Origin: Actinotalea sp. JY-7876
Lineage (GTDB): Bacteria > Actinomycetota > Actinomycetes > Actinomycetales > Cellulomonadaceae
Reading direction: 5' to 3'
Length of the DNA: 64,000 bases
Assembly (NCBI RefSeq): GCF_014042015.1
Contig: NZ_CP059493.1
Location: forward strand, 2,232,001 to 2,296,000
The notes beneath the pieces are model-generated. The model was given only the letters and a program-made list of their open reading frames with translations. It searched no databases and was not told the DNA's origin. Shown here one piece after another: positions 20,755-31,388 of the stretch (positions are counted from its first letter, which is position 1; every line of letters starts with the position of its first letter). Made by a program: the position numbers and the translations under genes.

Positions 20755-21753
20755 CTAGCCGCCGAAGTGGTCCCAGCCCGTGGGGCCCCGCACGGCGGCA
20801 CCCTCGACGGTCACGCTGCCGGCCGGCGCGCCGGGCGTCGGGGCCGTGACCCGTCCGACCGGACGGAACGGCGCGGGAACCGCCCCACCCGCGGGGAACG
20901 CCGCGAGCAGGCCGTGGTCCTCACCGCCGGCCAGCAGCCAGTCGCGCACGTCGACGCCCAGCTTTCGGGCGGCCGCCGCGAGGGCGACGGCGTCCTCGCC
21001 GAAGGCGACGAGCGGGTCGTCCAGGTCGACCACGACGCCGCTCGCACGCGCGAGCCGGCCCGCGTCACGCACGAGCCCGTCCGAGACGTCGAGCATGGCC
21101 GTCGCGCCGGCCCGGGCGGCCGCCGGCCCGGCCGCGAGCGGCGAGACCGGTCGCAGGTGCGCCTCGACGAGCGCCGGGTGGGCCCTGGCCGCGTCACCCC
21201 CGGCGGTGAGCAGCGCGAGCCCGGCCGCCGAGCGTCCGCGCACCCCGGCGTGCGCGACGACGTCCCCGGGCCGCGCTCCGCTGCGGAGCACGGGCGCGCG
21301 CCCCTCCAGGTCGCCGTGCACGGTCACGGCGACCACGACCTCGGAGCCGCCCGACAGGTCCCCCCCGACGACGCCGACCTCGGGGCCGCACGCGGCGGCG
21401 AGGCCGCGAGCCAGGCCCAGCACCCAGGACACGGGCACGTCGGGCGGCACGACGAGCGCGACCACGAGAGCCGTCGGACGCGCCCCCATCGCGGCGACGT
21501 CGGCCAGGTTCTGGACCGCCGCGCGCCGGCCGACGTCCTCGCCGGACGACCACTCGCGACGGAAGTGGCGGCCCTCCACGAGCACGTCGGTCGAGACGAC
21601 GACACGCGCGTCGGGCGCGGCCACGACGGCGGCGTCGTCGCCCGGGCCGAGCAGCGTCCCCGCCGCGCGCGGCAGGAGGGGGAAGATCTGCGCGAGGAGC
21701 GCGTCCTCACCGAGGTCGGCGACCGTCGGTCCGGCGCTCGCCTCGGGTTCCAC
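20755..21753 (-). CDS. thiL: Thiamine-monophosphate kinase
   Basis: Phosphorylates thiamine monophosphate to thiamine diphosphate, the last step of cofactor synthesis. 332 residues from GTG. AIR-synthase-type fold with GPGDDAAVV (metal/ATP binding), STDVLVEGRHFRREW, and NLADVAAMGARPTAL near residue 80. VGGDLSGGSEVVVAVTVHG and MLDVSDGLVRDAGRLA are further family motifs. Divergent from the DUF3515 lipoprotein gene. No TPP riboswitch is recognisable upstream. Confidence 0.94.
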   Translation of the reverse strand: MEPEASAGPTVADLGEDALLAQIFPLLPRAAGTLLGPGDDAAVVAAPDARVVVSTDVLVEGRHFRREWSSGEDVGRRAAVQNLADVAAMGARPTALVVALVVPPDVPVSWVLGLARGLAAACGPEVGVVGGDLSGGSEVVVAVTVHGDLEGRAPVLRSGARPGDVVAHAGVRGRSAAGLALLTAGGDAARAHPALVEAHLRPVSPLAAGPAAARAGATAMLDVSDGLVRDAGRLARASGVVVDLDDPLVAFGEDAVALAAAARKLGVDVRDWLLAGGEDHGLLAAFPAGGAVPAPFRPVGRVTAPTPGAPAGSVTVEGAAVRGPTGWDHFGG

Positions 21754-21827: not shown

Positions 21828-22322
21828 GTGAACCGCCCGTCCCCCGCTCGCGCCCTCACCCTCTCGACCACGGCCGCCGGGTGCGCCCTGCTCGCCGCCT
21901 GCGGCCAGGCCGTGGCCGTGCCCGCGGCCCCGCACGCCGCGGACCCGGTGTGCGCGGCGGTCGTCCTCGCGATGCCCGAGACGCTCGACGGCATGCCCCG
22001 CCTCGAGACGACGAGCCAGGCGACGACCGCGTGGGGCGACCGCACGGCGCCGGTCGTGGCGCGCTGCGGGGTCGAGCCGCCCGGGCCCACGACGGACCCG
22101 TGCGTGGACGCGGACGACGGCGCGTACCAGGTCGACTGGGTGGCGATCGCCGGCGCCGAGGACGCCGACGGTGCGGCCCCGTGGACCTTCGTCACGTACG
22201 GCCGCGATCCCGCCGTCGAGGTCCGCGTGCCCGCGTCCGTGGCGAGCTCCCGCTCGACGTCGTTCCTGCTCGATCTGGGACCGGCCGTCAGCCTGGTCGA
22301 GCAGACCCGCTCCTGCCTGTGA
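21828..22322 (+). CDS. DUF3515-type lipoprotein
   Basis: 164-residue exported protein from GTG. The signal peptide ends in a lipobox, LLAACG, so Cys24 or so would be lipidated and the protein anchored outside the membrane. The mature part has four further cysteines (PVCAAV, ARCGVEP, DPCVDAD, RSCL) that could pair. Members of this family sit between ddl and thiL in many actinobacteria. Function is unknown. Same strand as, and 85 bp before, the Ddl-like gene. Confidence 0.8.
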   Translation: MNRPSPARALTLSTTAAGCALLAACGQAVAVPAAPHAADPVCAAVVLAMPETLDGMPRLETTSQATTAWGDRTAPVVARCGVEPPGPTTDPCVDADDGAYQVDWVAIAGAEDADGAAPWTFVTYGRDPAVEVRVPASVASSRSTSFLLDLGPAVSLVEQTRSCL

Positions 22323-22407: not shown

Positions 22408-23379
22408 GTGACGACGGAGTTCGACCGTGTGGCAGTGATCGCCGGAGGCCTGTCCAACGAGCGCGAGGTCTCCATGCGCTCCGGGCGACGCGCCCTGTAC
22501 GCCCTCGCGGAGGCGGGCATCGACGCGGCCCTCTACGACGCCGACGAGTCGCTCCTCGACCGCCTGGCGACCGACGGCGTCGACGCCGCCTACATCGCGG
22601 TGCACGGCGCCAGCGGCGAGGACGGCTCGCTGCAGTCCGCGCTCGAGCTCGCGGGCGTGCCCTACGTCGGCTCGCCGCCCAGCTCGTGCCACCTGGCCTG
22701 GGACAAGGTCGTCGCGAAGGTCCTCATGTCCCGCGCCGGCCTCGCGACCCCGCCCTGGGTGGCGATCTCGTCCCGCTCGTTCCGCGAGCTCTCGCCCGCG
22801 CAGCTGGTCCGGTCCATCACCGACCAGCTGGGGCTGCCCGTCGTCGTCAAGCCCGCGACCAGCGGCTCGACCCTCGGGATGAGCCTCGTCGAGGTCGCGG
22901 CGGACCTGCCGGCCGCGCTCGTGCGGTGCTTCACCTTCGGTGACGTCGCGCTCATCGAGCGGTACGTGGCGGGCCAGACCATCGAGACCGTCGTCGTCGA
23001 GGACGACGAGCCGCGCGCGCTGCCCCCGGCCGCGTTCCAGAACCCCGACGTGTCGCCGTTCTCCTTCGAGGCGCGCTACAGCGCCGACCTCATCACGGTC
23101 GCGCTGCCGGCGCCGCTGCCCGACGAGGCGCTCGCCGCCGCCGCGCACGCCGCCGAGCTGACGCACCGCGTGCTGGGCCTGCGGGACATCTCGCGGACCG
23201 ACGCGATCGTCGACGACGCCGGGACCCCGTGGTTCCTCGAGGCGGCCATCTCCCCCGGGCTCACCGAGACGTCCGTGCTGCCCCTGGCGGCCGCCGAGGT
23301 CGGTCGCCCGCTCGGCCAGCTGCTGCTGGACCTGCTCGCCAAGGCGCACCGCCGCGCGGCGACCGCCCCGTCGTCCTGA
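22408..23379 (+). CDS. D-alanine-D-alanine ligase-like ATP-grasp protein with altered catalytic residues
   Basis: 323-residue Ddl homologue from GTG. The N-terminal domain has LSNEREVSMRSG and HGASGEDGSLQSALELAGVP. The ATP-grasp has KPATSGSTLGMS. The C-terminal RTDAIVDD and SPGLTETSVLP stretches follow the DdlB pattern. However, the E-x-N metal motif (LEVNTSPGMT in E. coli DdlB) reads LEAAISPGLT, so the Asn is Ala. The omega-loop Lys (YETKY) reads FEARYS. It may be a ligase of changed specificity or a non-catalytic paralogue. It is convergent with a second Ddl-like gene at 23404-24534. Confidence 0.8.
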   Translation: MTTEFDRVAVIAGGLSNEREVSMRSGRRALYALAEAGIDAALYDADESLLDRLATDGVDAAYIAVHGASGEDGSLQSALELAGVPYVGSPPSSCHLAWDKVVAKVLMSRAGLATPPWVAISSRSFRELSPAQLVRSITDQLGLPVVVKPATSGSTLGMSLVEVAADLPAALVRCFTFGDVALIERYVAGQTIETVVVEDDEPRALPPAAFQNPDVSPFSFEARYSADLITVALPAPLPDEALAAAAHAAELTHRVLGLRDISRTDAIVDDAGTPWFLEAAISPGLTETSVLPLAAAEVGRPLGQLLLDLLAKAHRRAATAPSS

Positions 23380-23403: not shown

Positions 23404-24534
23404 TCAGGCGCGCGGCCCGTCCAGGCCGACGAGCTTGCCGCTGATGCCGCCCGCGGCACGCAGGGCGGCGCCGGAGCCGAAGCCGCTGGCGACCGCGGGC
23501 ACGCCGGCGTCGCGCGCCTCGACGAGCGCGTCGCGCAGCACCTGAGCCGCCGGACGCTTGGAGGCCCACAGGTACAGCGCCATCGCACCGGGCACCGAGT
23601 TGACCTCGTTGACGTACAGCTCGTGCGTCTGCGGCTGGTACAGCAGGTCCACGCGGACCACCCCGGTCAGGCGCGTCGCGACGGCGACCCGGCGCGCGAT
23701 GTCCTGCGCCTGGGCGGTGACCTCGGCCGGCACCTGCGCGGGGATCTCGCGCGGCGCGTTCGTCAGGCCCGCGTCCTCGCCCGCCCCGCCCGCGAGGTAC
23801 TTCTCGGCGTAGGAGTAGACGCCCTCGCTGCCGCGCAGCGGCCGCTCGAGGTCGGAGACCTCGAGCGTGGGCGCCGTGCGGAAGGAGATGTTGAGGTCGA
23901 CCAGGTCGCCGCGGAACGGCTCGAGCACGGCGCCCTGGCGCAGGTGCGTGCTGGTGCGCCCGAGGACGCGGGCGGCCGCGAGGTCGTCGACGATCTCGAT
24001 GCCGATCGACGAGCCGCCGTAGCGCGGCTTGACGATGTACGGGCCCTCGAAGCCCGGGTCGACGTCGGCGTCGAGCGCGGCCCGCGGCAGCGTCGGGACG
24101 CCCGCGGCGACCATGACGCCCCCGAACGCGAGCTTGTCCATGCCGAGCGCCGACGCGTACAGCGACGAGCCGGTCGCCGGCAGCCCCAGGAGCGCGGCCA
24201 GCGACGCGAAGCCGCCACCCTCGCCCAGGCCGCCGTGCAGGCAGCTCAGCGCGGCCTCGGGCTCGAGCCGCTCGGAGCGCAGGCGCCCCTTGACGTACAG
24301 GCCGGGGTCGGCGCCGAGCCGGATCTCGACCGGCTTCGCGCCGGCGGGGGCGCCCTGCAGGTAGTCCTTGGCCTCGGTGCCCGGCGGCACGAGGAACCAC
24401 GCGCCCGTGGGGCCCCAGTAGAGGGAGAGCACCTGCTCACCCGCGCGGGTCAGGACCCGCTCGCTCTGCAGGCCGGTCAGGATCGAGATCTCGTGCTCCG
24501 GGGACGGACCGCCGAACACCACTGCCCAGGACAT
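23404..24534 (-). CDS. D-alanine-D-alanine ligase family ATP-grasp enzyme
   Basis: 376 residues from ATG. GGPSPEHEISILTG gives the substrate-binding Glu. HGGLGEGGGFASLAALLG corresponds to the HGxxGExGxxQ stretch but lacks the usual EDG/Q residues. KPRYGGSSIGIEIV is the ATP-grasp loop. The metal motif is intact (YVNEVNSVPG) but is followed by AMALYLW instead of FT..S.YP. That ending is typical of Ddl-like enzymes paired with membrane Mur ligases, as I recall from the family. It sits 105 bp downstream of the MurF-like gene on the same strand. It may be the cell's Ddl or make another D-dipeptide. Confidence 0.82.
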   Translation of the reverse strand: MSWAVVFGGPSPEHEISILTGLQSERVLTRAGEQVLSLYWGPTGAWFLVPPGTEAKDYLQGAPAGAKPVEIRLGADPGLYVKGRLRSERLEPEAALSCLHGGLGEGGGFASLAALLGLPATGSSLYASALGMDKLAFGGVMVAAGVPTLPRAALDADVDPGFEGPYIVKPRYGGSSIGIEIVDDLAAARVLGRTSTHLRQGAVLEPFRGDLVDLNISFRTAPTLEVSDLERPLRGSEGVYSYAEKYLAGGAGEDAGLTNAPREIPAQVPAEVTAQAQDIARRVAVATRLTGVVRVDLLYQPQTHELYVNEVNSVPGAMALYLWASKRPAAQVLRDALVEARDAGVPAVASGFGSGAALRAAGGISGKLVGLDGPRA

Positions 24535-24639
24535 GCACCCTCATCTCGTCGTCGGGGGATCGTCGCCGGCACCGGCACGCCGGGACCGGCACACCGTCAC
24601 CACCTGCAGCGTGGCACGCGTGCTGCGTACCGACGCAGG

Positions 24640-26184
24640 TCACGGATAGTGGTCCGGCAGGTCGTTCTCGTAGAGTACGACGCCGTTCGAGCCCGCCGCG
24701 GCGGTCGCCAGCGGCACCGCCTCGGGGCGTGTGGCCACGACCTCGACGGCTCCCCCGGCCCGCGCCGCACCCTCGACGAGCGCCGCGCGGTTGGTCCGCC
24801 CGACGACGACGAGGTGCGCCCCGGCGGCCGCGGCGGCCTCCGCGAAGTCCGCGTTGCGCCGGTGCTGCACGGGGCCGAGCTCGACGATGCCGGGCGTCAC
24901 GACGACGAGGCGTGCGCCCCGCTCCCGCGCGAGCCCCGCCGCCTCGTCGAGCGCGGCGCGCGCGCCGATCGGGTTCGCGTTGTAGGTGTCGTCGACCACG
25001 ACCAGGCCCGTGCCGGTGTCCTGCACCTCGGCGCGGTGGGCGGCGCGCGGCAGCGCGCGCAGCCGCGGCCCGGCCGCCGCGACGTCGGCCCCGACGGCGA
25101 TCGCGACGCCGACGGCGACGCCCAGGTTGACGCCGTGCGCGACACCGGGCCCCACGTCGAGCGTCACGGTCCCGTCGGGCGTGCGGGCCACCACGGTGCC
25201 GGCGGGGAGGTCCACGACGACGTCGGCGTCGCGCCCCTCGACCGAGACGGTCACGACCTGCTTGCCCTCGGCCCGGCAGCGCTCGGCGAGCGCCGCCAGG
25301 TCCGGGGAGTCGATCGGCAGCACGACGGCGCGCGCCCGCTCGGTGATCTCCGACTTGGCCGCGAGGATGGTCTGCGTCGTGCGCATGCGCTCGAGGTGCG
25401 CCTCGCCGATCGTGGTGATGACGGCGACGTCGGGCGGGAACAGCTCGCACAGCTCGCGGATCTCGCCGGGTCCGTAGGTGCCCATCTCGGCGACGAAGAC
25501 CTCGGTGCCCTCGACCAGGCCGTCGTTGACCGCGCGCGAGAGGCCCAGGCGGTTGTTGAAGCTCGCGGGCGACGCGACGACGGCCTTCGAGGCGCTCAGC
25601 AGGTGCGCGACGTAGCCCTTGGTCGACGTCTTGCCGTACGAGCCCGTGATGGCGACGACCTGCGGCCGGATGCGGGCGAGGCGGCGCTGCGCCTGCGCGA
25701 CGAACGGCGCCGAGAGGCGGCGCTCGACGCGCTCCATGACCCACATCGCGGCGTCGAGCAGGACGGGTGCGCCCACGACGACGAGGGCGACGGCGCCCGG
25801 GCCGACCAGCAGCACGAGCGCGGCCCCCAGGACGAGCTCGAGGAGGAGCCACGCGATCACGAGCCGGCGCAGCCGCGCGGTCCAGCCGAGCGACGACGTG
25901 CGACCGCGCACGCCCAGACCACGCGGCAGGAACACGGCGAGCGCGAGGGCGGGCACTGCGGCGAGCTCGAGGCCCGGCACGCAGGCCACGACCGCGAGCA
26001 CCCCGGCGAGCACCGCGAGCACGAGGTCGGTGCGCGACCTCGACAGCCACAGCGCGCCGATGCGCGCCGCCCGGCCGGGCAGGTAGTGCTCGCGCTGGCC
26101 GACCCGCAGCCAGCGCAGACCCACCGGCGCGAGCGCCGCAAGGCCGAGGAGCGTGAGGACCAGGGTCAGCGCCGTGCCGCTCAT
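24640..26184 (-). CDS. Membrane-anchored MurF-like Mur ligase
   Basis: 514 residues from ATG (MSGTALTLVLTLLGLA). The first ~150 residues hold about five hydrophobic segments (near 3-20, 53-69, 72-87, 107-128, 130-148), which MurF itself lacks. The Mur ligase part follows: ATP-binding VVAITGSYGKTSTKG (about 176-190), FNNRLGLSRAVN, AEMGTYGPGEI, TTIGEAHLERM, and the MurF signature VVDDTYNANPIGARAALDEA. Mur ligases join an amino acid or dipeptide to an acyl acceptor via acyl phosphate. MurF uses D-Ala-D-Ala. The start overlaps the hydrolase stop by 4 bp. Canonical murF is expected in the dcw cluster elsewhere. Substrate unknown. Confidence 0.82.
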   Translation of the reverse strand: MSGTALTLVLTLLGLAALAPVGLRWLRVGQREHYLPGRAARIGALWLSRSRTDLVLAVLAGVLAVVACVPGLELAAVPALALAVFLPRGLGVRGRTSSLGWTARLRRLVIAWLLLELVLGAALVLLVGPGAVALVVVGAPVLLDAAMWVMERVERRLSAPFVAQAQRRLARIRPQVVAITGSYGKTSTKGYVAHLLSASKAVVASPASFNNRLGLSRAVNDGLVEGTEVFVAEMGTYGPGEIRELCELFPPDVAVITTIGEAHLERMRTTQTILAAKSEITERARAVVLPIDSPDLAALAERCRAEGKQVVTVSVEGRDADVVVDLPAGTVVARTPDGTVTLDVGPGVAHGVNLGVAVGVAIAVGADVAAAGPRLRALPRAAHRAEVQDTGTGLVVVDDTYNANPIGARAALDEAAGLARERGARLVVVTPGIVELGPVQHRRNADFAEAAAAAGAHLVVVGRTNRAALVEGAARAGGAVEVVATRPEAVPLATAAAGSNGVVLYENDLPDHYP

Positions 26185-26954
26185 GCGCCGCCGTCCTGGG
26201 CGCGGCCGTCGGGGGTGAGGTCGCGCTCGAGCCGGGCCTGCAGCGTGTCCCGCACCGCCGCCTCGAGCGGCCCCTCGAGCAGGTGACCGGCACCGGGCAC
26301 GACGTCGAGCGGGGCGCCCGGCAGCAGCTCGGCCGCCAGCCGCGCGCCGGCGAGCGGCGCGGCGTCGTCGGCCTCGCCCCACACCAGGTGCACGGGCAGG
26401 CCGGCGGCGGCGATCCGCGCGAGGTCCTCGCGGTAGTCCTCGCCGACGACGCGGACGAGCACGCCGCGCATGACCCCCTGGGCCGCCTGGTAGTCGGCGG
26501 AGCCGCCGCTGCGGCGAAGCCGGTCGACGACGCCCTGCGGCAGCAGGTGGGCGGCGCGCAGGCGCTTGGCGACCCGCAGCGCGAGGCGCGGTCGCGGCGG
26601 GGGCGTCGCCCGGACGAGGGGCACGCCCGTGAGCACGAGCGAGCGGACGAGCTCCGGGTGCGCGGCCGCCAGCCGGACGGCGACACGGCCGCCGAAGGAG
26701 TGCGCGACGACGGTGTACGGACCGGTGCCCGCGAGCGCGGCGGCGAGGTGCTCGGCGTACTCGACGGAGCCCCAGGCCTGCGGCGGCGGGGCCGTCGGGC
26801 CGAAGCCCGGCAGGTGGACCGCGAGCGCGTCCGTCCCGTCGAGGACGCGCTGGAAGTCGGCGCCGGAGCGGCCCCAGCCGTGGAGGGCGAGCACGCGTGA
26901 GGGAGCCGCGCCGACCCGGTCGGCGAGCACGTCCCCCGCCAAGACCGTCAGCAC
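26181..26954 (-). CDS. Alpha/beta-fold hydrolase
   Basis: 257 residues from GTG. Serine hydrolase fold with oxyanion-region LALHGWGRSGADF, nucleophile elbow AHSFGG (Ser in VVAHSFGGRVAVRLA), acid in VWGEADDAAP and catalytic His in VVPGAGHLLEGP. No signal peptide, so cytoplasmic. First gene of a minus-strand trio, coupled by a 4-bp overlap to the membrane MurF-like gene, which suggests a shared pathway. Substrate unknown. Confidence 0.82.
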   Translation of the reverse strand: MLTVLAGDVLADRVGAAPSRVLALHGWGRSGADFQRVLDGTDALAVHLPGFGPTAPPPQAWGSVEYAEHLAAALAGTGPYTVVAHSFGGRVAVRLAAAHPELVRSLVLTGVPLVRATPPPRPRLALRVAKRLRAAHLLPQGVVDRLRRSGGSADYQAAQGVMRGVLVRVVGEDYREDLARIAAAGLPVHLVWGEADDAAPLAGARLAAELLPGAPLDVVPGAGHLLEGPLEAAVRDTLQARLERDLTPDGRAQDGGA

Positions 26955-28298: not shown

Positions 28299-29309
28299 CT
28301 AGAGGCCCTCGGCCTTGTGGGGGCGCGCGAGCAGCGCCTGCGCCATGCGGTCCACGGGAAGCCCGTGGTGCAGGACGTCGACCACCGCGGCCGTGATGGG
28401 CATCTCGACACCGACCGTGCCGGCGAGCTCGAGCACGGACGACGAGGACTTGACGCCCTCCGCCGTCCCGCCCGTGGCGGCCAGCGCCTCGGCCAGCGTC
28501 ATCCCCTGACCGATGTGCACGCCGAGCGTGTGGTTGCGCGAGAGCGGCGAGGCGCACGTCGCCACGAGGTCGCCCATGCCCGCCAGGCCGGAGAACGTCT
28601 CCGCGTCCGCGCCGAGCGCCAGCCCGAGGCGCGTGATCTCCACCAGGCCCCGCGTGATGACCGTGGCCATCGTGTTGTGCCCGAAGCCGCGCCCCTGGGC
28701 GATGCCCACGGCGACCGCGATGACGTTCTTCACGGCGCCGCAGAGCTCGACGCCGACGACGTCGGTGTTCGTGTACGGCCGGAAGTAGGCCGAGGCACAC
28801 GCCTGGGCGACCCGCTGGGCGGTCGCCTCGTCGGTCGACGCGACCACCGTCGCCGTCGGCTGCCGCGCCGCGATCTCCTTGGCGAGGTTGGGCCCCGAGA
28901 CGACGGCGATCCGCGCGTCCGGCACGCCCAGCGCGTGGGCGACGACCTCGCTCATGCGGCGGTCGGAGCTGAGCTCCACGCCCTTCATCAGCGAGACGAC
29001 GAGCGCGTCGGGCTCCAGCAGTGCCGCGAACGGCTCGAGCGTGCGGCCGGCGGTCTGCGCGGGCACCGCGACCGCCACCACCTCGGCGCCGCGCAGGGCG
29101 TCGGCGGCGTCGGTCGTGGCCCGGATGCGCTCGGGCAGGCGGACGCCGGGCAGGTAGGCCTCGTTCGTGCGGTGCGACGTGATCTCGTCGCACACCTCGG
29201 CGCGCCGGCCCCAGAGGGTGACGTCGCAGCCGGCGTCGGCGAGGACCGCCGCGAAGGTGGTGCCCCAGCTCCCGGTCCCCAGGACCGCGGCCCGCGTGCG
29301 GGCCGTCAC
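28299..29309 (-). CDS. gpsA: NAD(P)-dependent glycerol-3-phosphate dehydrogenase
   Basis: Reduces dihydroxyacetone phosphate to sn-glycerol-3-phosphate, the backbone for phospholipids. 336 residues from GTG. Rossmann motif AAVLGTGSWGTTFA, substrate-binding GPNLAKEI, catalytic Lys in GAVKNVIAVAVGIAQGRGFGHNT, and GLAGMGDLVATCASPLSRN. The start overlaps the plsC stop by 4 bp (GTGA), giving a plsC-gpsA unit with murA upstream. Confidence 0.96.
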   Translation of the reverse strand: MTARTRAAVLGTGSWGTTFAAVLADAGCDVTLWGRRAEVCDEITSHRTNEAYLPGVRLPERIRATTDAADALRGAEVVAVAVPAQTAGRTLEPFAALLEPDALVVSLMKGVELSSDRRMSEVVAHALGVPDARIAVVSGPNLAKEIAARQPTATVVASTDEATAQRVAQACASAYFRPYTNTDVVGVELCGAVKNVIAVAVGIAQGRGFGHNTMATVITRGLVEITRLGLALGADAETFSGLAGMGDLVATCASPLSRNHTLGVHIGQGMTLAEALAATGGTAEGVKSSSSVLELAGTVGVEMPITAAVVDVLHHGLPVDRMAQALLARPHKAEGL

Positions 29310-30071: not shown

Positions 30072-31388
30072 TCAGCTGCGGTCGAACTCGGCGCCGAGCG
30101 CGGTGAGCTTGTCCATGAAGTGCTCGTAGCCGCGGTCGATGAGGTCGATGCCCCGCACCGCGGAGACGCCCTTGGCCGTGAGGGCCGCGATGAGGTGGCT
30201 GAACCCGCCGCGCAGGTCCGGCACCTCGATGTCGGCGGCCGCGAGCGGCGTCGGGCCCGAGACGACGGCCGAGTGGTAGAAGTTCCGCTGGCCGAACCGG
30301 CACGGGTGGCCGCCGAGGCACTCGCGGTACACCTGGATGGTGGCGCCCATGCCGACGAGCGCGTCCGTGAAGCCGAAGCGGTTCTCGTAGACGGTCTCGT
30401 GGACGATCGACAGGCCCTTGGCCTGCGTCAGGGCGACGACGAGCGGCTGCTGCCAGTCCGTCATGAAGCCGGGGTGCACGTCGGTCTCGAGGACGATCGA
30501 GCGCAGGTCGCCGCCGGGGTGGAAGAAGCGGATGCCGTCGTCGAGCACGTCGAACTCCCCGCCGACCTTGCGGAAGGTGTTGAGGAAGGTCGTCATCTCG
30601 GGCTGCGTCGCGCCGCGCACGGTGATGTCGCCGGCCGTGGCGAGCGCCGCCGAGGCCCACGACGCCGCCTCGATGCGGTCCGAGAGCGCGGTGTGGCGGT
30701 AGCCCATCAGGCGGGGCACGCCCTCGATCCGGATGACGCGGTCCGTGTCGACCGAGATGATCGCGCCCATCTTCTGCAGCACGTTGATCAGGTCGAGGAT
30801 CTCCGGCTCGATCGCGGCGTTCGTCAGCTCGGTGAGGCCCTCGGCGCGCACGGCCGTGAGGAGCAGCTGCTCGGTCGCGCCGACGCTCGGGTACGGCAGG
30901 GACACCTTGGTGCCGTGCAGGCCGCGCGGGGCGCGGATGTGGATCCCCTGCTCGCGCTTCTCCACGACGGCGCCGAACTGGCGCAGGATGTCGAGGTGGA
31001 AGTTGATCGGCCGGTCGCCGATCCGGCAGCCGCCGAGGTCGGGGATGAACGCCTCGCCGAGGCGGTGCAGCAGCGGCCCGCAGAACAGGATCGGGATGCG
31101 GCTGGAGCCGGCGTGCGCGTCGATGTCCGCCACGTGGGCCGACTCGACGTTGCTCGGGTCGAGCCGCAGGACCCCGGCGCGGGGGTCGGACGTCACCTGG
31201 ACGCCGTGCAGCTCGAGCAGGCCCGTGACCACGCCGACGTCGCGGATCACGGGGACGTTGCGCAGCTCGCTCGGCCCCTCGCCGAGGAGGGACGCGACCA
31301 TCGCCTTGGAGACGAAGTTCTTCGCGCCGCGGACGGTGATCTCGCCGTTGAGGGGCGTGCCACCGTGGATGTGCAGGACGTCAGGCAT
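30072..31388 (-). CDS. murA: UDP-N-acetylglucosamine 1-carboxyvinyltransferase
   Basis: First committed step of peptidoglycan synthesis: adds enolpyruvate from PEP to UDP-GlcNAc in the cytoplasm. 438 residues from ATG. GAKNFVSKAMVASLL is the substrate-binding KN motif. The catalytic Cys121 is in LGGCRIGDRPINFHLD, so fosfomycin sensitivity is possible. Many mycobacterial enzymes have Asp here instead. Heads the murA-plsC-gpsA run. Confidence 0.96.
   Translation of the reverse strand: MPDVLHIHGGTPLNGEITVRGAKNFVSKAMVASLLGEGPSELRNVPVIRDVGVVTGLLELHGVQVTSDPRAGVLRLDPSNVESAHVADIDAHAGSSRIPILFCGPLLHRLGEAFIPDLGGCRIGDRPINFHLDILRQFGAVVEKREQGIHIRAPRGLHGTKVSLPYPSVGATEQLLLTAVRAEGLTELTNAAIEPEILDLINVLQKMGAIISVDTDRVIRIEGVPRLMGYRHTALSDRIEAASWASAALATAGDITVRGATQPEMTTFLNTFRKVGGEFDVLDDGIRFFHPGGDLRSIVLETDVHPGFMTDWQQPLVVALTQAKGLSIVHETVYENRFGFTDALVGMGATIQVYRECLGGHPCRFGQRNFYHSAVVSGPTPLAAADIEVPDLRGGFSHLIAALTAKGVSAVRGIDLIDRGYEHFMDKLTALGAEFDRS

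Follow-up and report, generated by a model that had tools for sequence, protein, structure and literature searches.

A 64,000-nucleotide stretch of DNA from the actinobacterium Actinotalea sp. JY-7876 (contig NZ_CP059493.1, positions 2,232,001 to 2,296,000; hereafter the window) encodes on its minus strand a trio of adjacent genes, namely HYD for an alpha/beta hydrolase, MEMF for a MurF-like ligase with an N-terminal membrane domain and DDLX for a Ddl-like ATP-grasp protein. Ddl makes D-Ala-D-Ala and MurF adds it to the MurNAc (N-acetylmuramic acid) tripeptide carried on uridine diphosphate (UDP), both in the cytosol; to our knowledge, both reactions are regarded as universal and as carried out by soluble enzymes before the membrane stage of wall synthesis, and both enzymes are drug targets. 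The patterns described below show MEMF, DDLX and HYD replacing the soluble MurF and Ddl in this organism and in relatives across Actinomycetota, and suggest that a textbook wall step has moved to the membrane. A first-pass annotation of the window had proposed a second dipeptide-making and -attaching pathway at the membrane. The membrane-associated pair stands, but the "second" falls, because neither a canonical murF nor a canonical ddl was found elsewhere in this genome, an absence that the annotation itself had named as counting against its proposal, and MEMF and DDLX are therefore to be seen as its MurF and Ddl. Even so, they differ from the ordinary enzymes, as MEMF lacks the UDP-binding domain and carries membrane helices. 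Instead of a second pathway, the trio thus represents the sole one that was found, a more surprising outcome.

The replacement is first visible in the gene content of the genome itself. Its five matches to the Mur_ligase_M domain are MurE, MurD and MurC of the dcw (division and cell wall) cluster, one at 1231264 outside that cluster, which we take to be FolC, and MEMF; none of them is a canonical MurF, and in the dcw cluster the murE frame leads directly into mraY. A Ddl-family search of the same genome recovered a second Ddl-like gene, absent from the first-pass description, that lies head-on to the trio (DDLB; 22408–23379, plus strand, 323 residues) at 123 bits, DDLX at 64 bits and four weak matches at 22–37 bits, and found no canonical ddl. 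The same dichotomy divides the genus: among 19 genomes, nine have a MurF above the curated cut-off (324–421 bits) and 10, including Actinotalea lenta, have MEMF only, with none having both. Canonical Ddl (221–234 bits) is seen in 8 of the 9 genomes with canonical MurF and in none of the 10 trio genomes, where no Ddl match exceeds those of DDLB (121–129 bits) and DDLX (55–70 bits).

The genomic context indicates where the exchange took place. The order murA-plsC-gpsA-HYD-MEMF-DDLX-DDLB-DUF3515-thiL is shared by the window and the nine other trio genomes of the genus, in one of which (G013) it is spread across two contigs that cover only murA to MEMF and DDLX-DDLB. In the canonical genomes at loci L112–L115, the Ddl gene lies between gpsA and the DUF3515 gene (L116 shows the DUF3515 side only and L124 the gpsA side only), and hence the trio occupies the ddl site of its sister genomes. 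A tree of the host genes murA, plsC and gpsA (10 trio, five canonical and three outside rows) interleaves the two groups near an unresolved base, with three changes, and a single origin of the trio in the genus may still be compatible with it.

At the other end of the exchange, a remnant of the old MurF persists. Measured from the start of the match, MurE spans 655–683 residues in the 10 trio genomes versus 517–543 in the seven canonical genomes with a readable end. In all 10, the extension is in frame and resembles the C-terminal part of a sister MurF (query residues 282–427 at the widest, 46–64% identity, E-values of 2e-17 to 2e-42; own genome L012:7483–9492, others L239–L247). This stub has no DDSYNANP motif and no ATPase domain, retains a GAxQEGS(W/F)xxE stretch, and in the window's genome matches Pfam Mur_ligase_C at 39.1 bits; it appears to be a catalytically dead C-terminal piece of MurF left at the old murF site. 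The stub is under constraint, as a whole less than MurE: in the seven closest pairs of the genus (proportion of nonsynonymous differences, pN, under 0.1 in MurE), its ratio to the synonymous proportion (pN/pS) is 0.21–0.34 for the stub and 0.18–0.25 for MurE, and among more distant pairs it reaches 0.83 for the stub versus 0.44 for MurE. Beyond the genus, a stub match outside MEMF (E-value 3e-19 or better) was found in 11 of 40 trio genomes of other lineages, the whole MurF of one Nocardioides genome (G470, below) being set aside from the count. In all 10 of these that were read (L257–L266, from Microbacteriaceae and a Frankiales metagenome-assembled genome, or MAG), it forms a separate frame between murE and mraY rather than part of the murE frame, with 153–346 codons between stops and no internal stop; six of the 10 are MAGs of 0.9–1.4 Mb that are possibly incomplete. 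Pfam gave no domain in the two such stubs submitted (L264 and L266). The same piece being kept by different lineages in two arrangements suggests that it has some role.

MEMF itself (24640–26184, minus strand, 514 residues, ATG start) has the murF model TIGR01143 as its best NCBIfam family, at 184.7 bits in the window and 174–190 bits across the 10 trio genomes of the genus, against a curated cut-off of 288.6, and Pfam recognizes Mur_ligase_M and Mur_ligase_C in it. The murF profile aligns only from position 61 on, and MurF chains of known structure only from about residue 70–113; the UDP-binding domain of MurF is missing. Its place is occupied by a membrane domain (residues 1–155; 25720–26184) of about five helices, as the first-pass annotation had counted, which recur in the hydropathy of 101 sequences and in a predicted model built with 80 sequences (mean pLDDT 95.8). 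The nearest fold to this model found with Foldseek is MurF 4qf5 (probability 1.00, 364 columns, E-values of 2.7e-21 and 5.3e-21, TM-score 0.65–0.66 by target). The catalytic Mur domains (24643–25719) keep the P-loop TGSYGKTSTK, E233, K277 and the motif DDTYNANP: G181, S182, G184, K185, T186, E233, D398, N402, N404 and P405 are found in 101/101 sequences and K277 in 100, and the P-loop, E233, K277, D398-D399-T400, N402, N404 and P405 are each kept in at least 97%, with the motif varying as DDT(Y/F)N(A/S)NP (Y in 53 and F in 48; S in 51 and A in 50). In the helix region, R27, Q30, R31, H33, Y34, W46, P87, T102 and R104 are invariant in all 101, the first five within the interface motif RWLRVxQREHY (residues 24–34; 26083–26115). 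Judged by charge and hydropathy, the Arg, His, Tyr, Gln, Trp and Thr among them would sit where the helices meet the cytosol. Near the C-terminus an invariant NDLPD is found, where the MurF of a sister genome differs, and in the one alignment made the GAxQEGSW segment of that MurF is absent from MEMF.

DDLX (23404–24534, minus strand, 376 residues, ATG start) scores 145 bits against the Ddl model TIGR01205, whose curated cut-off is 245.65. Being below their cut-offs, MEMF and DDLX are not filed under TIGR01143 and TIGR01205, respectively, and their MurF-like and Ddl-like functions are proposed from the gene replacement together with the kept motifs. In DDLX, K169, S175, K245, Y246, R294, D296, E310 and N312 are present in 105/105 sequences and E13 in 103, with two gaps; these presumably correspond to E15, K144, S150, K215, Y216, R255, D257, E270 and N272 of Escherichia coli DdlB. 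Nothing unusual is apparent in the first D-Ala site or in the chemistry. The altered sequence that had been noticed in the region of the Ddl EVN motif is indeed there (EVNSVPGAMALYLW, residues 310–323; 23566–23607), and it includes Tyr321 at the place of DdlB Ser281, which we take to be the site of the second D-Ala carboxylate. Across the 105 sequences this position is Tyr in 81, His in 23 and Lys in one, and never Ser, so the second amino-acid site may differ from that of Ddl.

DDLB, with 251.1 bits against NCBIfam PRK01372 (cut-off 243), might be taken for the canonical Ddl. This is doubtful: it reads LEAAISPG where Ddl has EVNxxPG and lacks the catalytic Asn, presumably a magnesium ligand. 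The Asn is replaced (by Ala, once by Ser) in DDLB and in all 14 further trio-adjacent copies examined (L101, L103–L110, L137, L150, L154, L161 and L170), unlike the stand-alone Ddl paralogues of seven canonical-MurF genomes, which retain it. Given its replacement in all 15 trio-adjacent copies, we take DDLB to be an accessory protein that is perhaps inactive. As the window copy passes the NCBIfam cut-off for D-alanine--D-alanine ligase, automatic annotation would probably name it Ddl.

HYD (26181–26954, minus strand, 257 residues, GTG start; Pfam Abhydrolase_6, 59.5 bits) is the first gene of the trio and overlaps MEMF by 4 bp (26181–26184), with the MEMF ATG inside the overlap; the shared strand of the three genes and this overlap are as first described. 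Of its residues, S86 and H224 never vary among 106 sequences and Asp196 is present in 103; its predicted model (pLDDT 95.4) is nearest to BioH and other esterases, and fold and sequence searches returned general esterases and hydrolases only. The linkage of the trio in relatives, seen in the shared gene order of the genus, extends to other genomes: MEMF is accompanied by HYD in 70 and by DDLX in 71 of 80 loci, a recurrence by which the grouping exceeds chance. Of the 10 loci where HYD is absent, nine have 685 bases or fewer upstream and only L187 has room for it; of the nine where DDLX is absent, two are cut off and seven have 2.7–10 kb downstream without it. With starts picked by nearness to the profile, the 4-bp overlap is kept in 45 of the 70 loci having HYD. 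This tight coupling suggests that HYD serves the same step as MEMF; its role as an editor of wrong ends or a recycler of peptides is a guess.

The 80 loci were obtained by searching named genomes with the MEMF alignment, which gave at least 570 stretches encoding relatives, canonical MurF possibly among them. The best 80 that were kept lie in Microbacteriaceae (Pontimonas, Gulosibacter, Yonghaparkia), Arsenicicoccus, Nocardioides, Aciditerrimonas and many MAGs of Acidimicrobiia; the MAG titles of some loci read "Acidobacteria". Of 41 genomes examined behind these MEMF loci, which include A. lenta and whose completeness is not stated, 40 have no MurF match above the cut-off. The exception, Nocardioides sp. 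YR527 (G470, locus L161), is the only genome found to have both systems and offers a natural setting in which the exchange could be studied. Ddl-family matches (at 1e-10) were counted in 40 of the 41; exactly one is present in 19 of these, and in 15 of those 19 it adjoins MEMF on the same contig.

A near-complete mutual exclusion also emerges from a phylum-wide sample of 396 genomes, compared by E-values. A match above the murF cut-off, which may count as reached by summing neighboring matches in frame, occurs in 348, and MEMF (at 1e-55) in 39 genomes of 29 of the 246 genera; nine genomes belong to neither group if the two sets are disjoint. In the 39, matches to the murF model are never better than 1.6e-73, two having none at 1e-44, and the canonical rows given reach 1.9e-114 or better. 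One family, f60, accounts for 10 of the 39 with a distant version that matches from profile position 90 or later, and its membrane MurF probably represents an earlier-diverging lineage of this system. Two of its loci (L237 and L238) have hydrophobic N-terminal stretches and adjoining relatives of HYD and DDLX, and read VFQLEGYK instead of VxQREHY. In the class of genome G753, whose MEMF is identical to that of L209 ("uncultured actinobacterium"), 84 of 149 genomes have canonical MurF above the cut-off, none has both kinds, 59 have only a below-cut-off match starting at profile position 23 or later (seven of these being genomes of 1.0–1.1 Mb from one genus) and six have none at 1e-44. In the window's own class, MEMF is rare, being found among 394 sampled genomes in the window's and in two of one genus from another family; the sequences of two more matches at 1e-45 identify them as canonical MurF. 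A plasmid search for MEMF gave no match at 1e-20.

These patterns can be brought together in the following scheme. The canonical genes were replaced, with the trio settling at the ddl site and the murF of the dcw cluster trimmed to a C-terminal stub. DDLX would couple two D-amino acids, in all likelihood both D-Ala, and MEMF, working on the cytosolic side of the membrane, would then attach the dipeptide to a MurNAc-tripeptide. Most probably this acceptor is the MurNAc-tripeptide of lipid I or II, furnished by MraY (and MurG), such that the MurF step would follow MraY rather than precede it; we infer a lipid-linked acceptor because MEMF is devoid of the UDP-binding domain and has helices with invariant residues at that place. 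HYD, made together with MEMF, would probably edit or recycle a precursor. Gene content, replacement, the almost complete mutual exclusion, the predicted fold and the conservation are what the data show; the reaction, its lipid-linked acceptor, the dipeptide, the membrane topology and the part played by HYD are deduced from them. Taken jointly, these propositions, namely that the trio is the organism's own MurF/Ddl system, with MEMF acting after MraY on a lipid-linked tripeptide, DDLX supplying the dipeptide and HYD as an auxiliary, appear to us on balance probable, if by no wide measure. A broader version is possible but less likely than not: in a sizeable part of Actinomycetota, MraY may load the tripeptide and a membrane MurF complete the stem on lipid I/II, and some lineages that lost the old MurF may have kept its dead C-terminal domain by selection, either fused to MurE or as a small protein encoded between murE and mraY, to act as a structural partner or scaffold and contribute the EGSW segment that MEMF does not have.

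Comparison with known systems helps to place the scheme. Canonical MurF (TIGR01143; PDB 4qf5, 3zl8, 1gg4) is closest to MEMF in sequence family and fold and shares its P-loop, catalytic Glu and Lys and DDT(Y/F)N(A/S)NP motif, but differs in the features of both termini described above and in the scores. The pseudomurein ligases pMurC and pMurD1 of methanogens (NF053645 and NF053646) are also Mur ligase relatives, but MEMF scores only 33.2 and 22.7 bits against cut-offs of 560 and 610. A functional parallel might be struck with MurT/GatD, the lipid II amidation system, in which MurT is a Mur ligase homolog that has no UDP-binding domain and whose substrate is a precursor held in the membrane; by this likeness, too, the acceptor of MEMF may be lipid-linked. 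According to excerpts of two studies (PMC6113224, also PMC6085368), Mur ligases bind UDP by the N-terminal domain, which MurT lacks, the pyrophosphate sits at the boundary of the N-terminal and middle domains, and with lipid II as substrate a UDP-binding domain would probably collide with the membrane. The parallel has its limits: MurT has a short flexible N-terminus (excerpts of PMC6113224) where MEMF has helices; it needs GatD, whereas Pfam finds no glutaminase in the trio; and it has DUF1727, whereas Pfam finds only Mur_ligase_M and Mur_ligase_C in MEMF. No MurT is evident among the five Mur_ligase_M matches of the window's genome, and MurT/GatD amidation of lipid II may therefore be absent from it.

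Several observations weigh against the scheme. G470 carries canonical MurF and Ddl alongside the trio, and G012, a genome of the genus with canonical MurF, has no canonical Ddl, just a 142-bit paralog. Neither MEMF nor DDLX attains the curated cut-off of its own family, the enzymatic activities of both are predictions, and the Tyr or His of DDLX at the Ser281 place could mean a different second amino acid. The phylum-wide searches scored the best three to four candidates per genome. Finally, none of 125 variable MraY columns separates the 10 trio from the nine canonical genomes of the genus, and hence there is no sign in them of an adaptation of MraY to a shorter peptide.

This last point bears on the strongest contender, in which MEMF is a membrane-tethered MurF that still uses UDP-MurNAc-tripeptide via cytosolic loops and passes the pentapeptide to MraY. 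The replacement evidence fits it equally, MraY has no site that separates trio from canonical genomes, and the invariant interface residues could bind the UDP diphosphate as well. It has to contend with the absence of the domain that holds the uridine in MurF, as seen in the alignment starts of profile (61) and structures (about 70–113), and with MurT, which likewise lacks that domain and, according to PMC6085368, does not use soluble UDP-linked precursors. We regard this reading as possible but rather unlikely.

Less likely again, and compatible with the other readings, is that DDLX and MEMF install another terminal residue (D-Ala-X), for instance as protection from an antibiotic whose target is D-Ala-D-Ala. 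The Tyr, His or Lys at the Ser281 place, the invariant NDLPD of MEMF that is unlike the sister MurF and the retention of both systems by one genome would agree with this, but the remaining compared catalytic residues of Ddl are kept in DDLX. Moreover, Actinotalea subterranea, a strain not tied to a trio genome, is given as penicillin- and ampicillin-sensitive in excerpts of PMC8878594. DDLX shares the fold family and catalytic residues of canonical Ddl (TIGR01205; PDB 3lwb) and of the VanA-type ligases, and differs from them at the Ser281 place, in its PGAMALYLW loop, in its sub-cut-off score and in adjoining MEMF and HYD. A Ddl-type ligase beside a MurF-like gene is also known in Actinobacteria from vanHAX with an extra murF (excerpts of PMC8698665), but there the extra murF adjoins the van genes, and the trio instead substitutes for canonical murF and ddl; the same excerpts report van-like genes in none of 216 Acidimicrobiales assemblies.

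It is very improbable that the MurE-stub fusion performs the steps of both MurE and MurF while the trio does something else: the presence of the stub on MurE in 10/10 trio genomes of the genus and its constraint in close pairs would fit, but the loss of DDSYNANP and the ATPase domain, the finding of a stub in only 11 of the 40 other trio genomes and the disappearance of canonical Ddl do not. The original proposal of a second, dispensable pathway for a D-Asp/D-Glu bridge or another polymer, for which linked genes at the membrane and the two systems of G470 might speak, can practically be set aside, as all trio genomes but one have no other MurF above the cut-off, 19 of 40 have no other Ddl-family match, the window's genome has no other competent Ddl and the trio has no visible tie to bridge type. 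On the last count, an Actinotalea comparison table (PMC8878594, the body of the table without its column headings) gives L-Orn-based bridges in all six columns, but the trio is absent from 9 of the 19 genomes of the genus and occurs in distant Actinomycetota too. Apart from A. lenta, the genomes are not matched to species in this comparison; the distribution speaks against a bridge function, although in individual species the two might be linked.

The literature covered, which mostly leaves out subscription journals and preprints and was seen in part, yielded no description of a membrane MurF or of MurF loss. If the stem is indeed completed at the membrane in a whole bacterial group, the textbook order of steps would not be fixed, and these bacteria would escape inhibitors that target the UDP-binding site of MurF. 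Score-based annotation, which here would label DDLB as Ddl and leave the genome with no MurF, would need a new model, and the surviving stub offers a direct way to test whether a Mur ligase domain can have a non-catalytic role.

Around the trio, the window reads murA (30072–31388, minus strand), a plsC-like gene, gpsA (28299–29309, minus strand), a gene for a Cys/Met pyridoxal phosphate enzyme on the opposite strand, the trio, DDLB, the DUF3515 gene (21828–22322, plus strand) and thiL (20755–21753, minus strand). The site that ddl occupies in other genomes is marked upstream by gpsA, with murA as a further landmark, and downstream by the DUF3515 gene and thiL; the plsC-like gene, without an NCBIfam match at 1e-30, is presumed to be such from its position. 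Among the other wall enzymes of the genus, no site in MurD or MurC separates trio from canonical genomes, MurE offers a single canonical row, and separating sites number three in MurG (one in a gapped column) and one in FtsW (gapped). MurG positions 190 and 265 are uniform (E and R) in eight canonical genomes and different in eight trio genomes, possibly by chance or shared descent.

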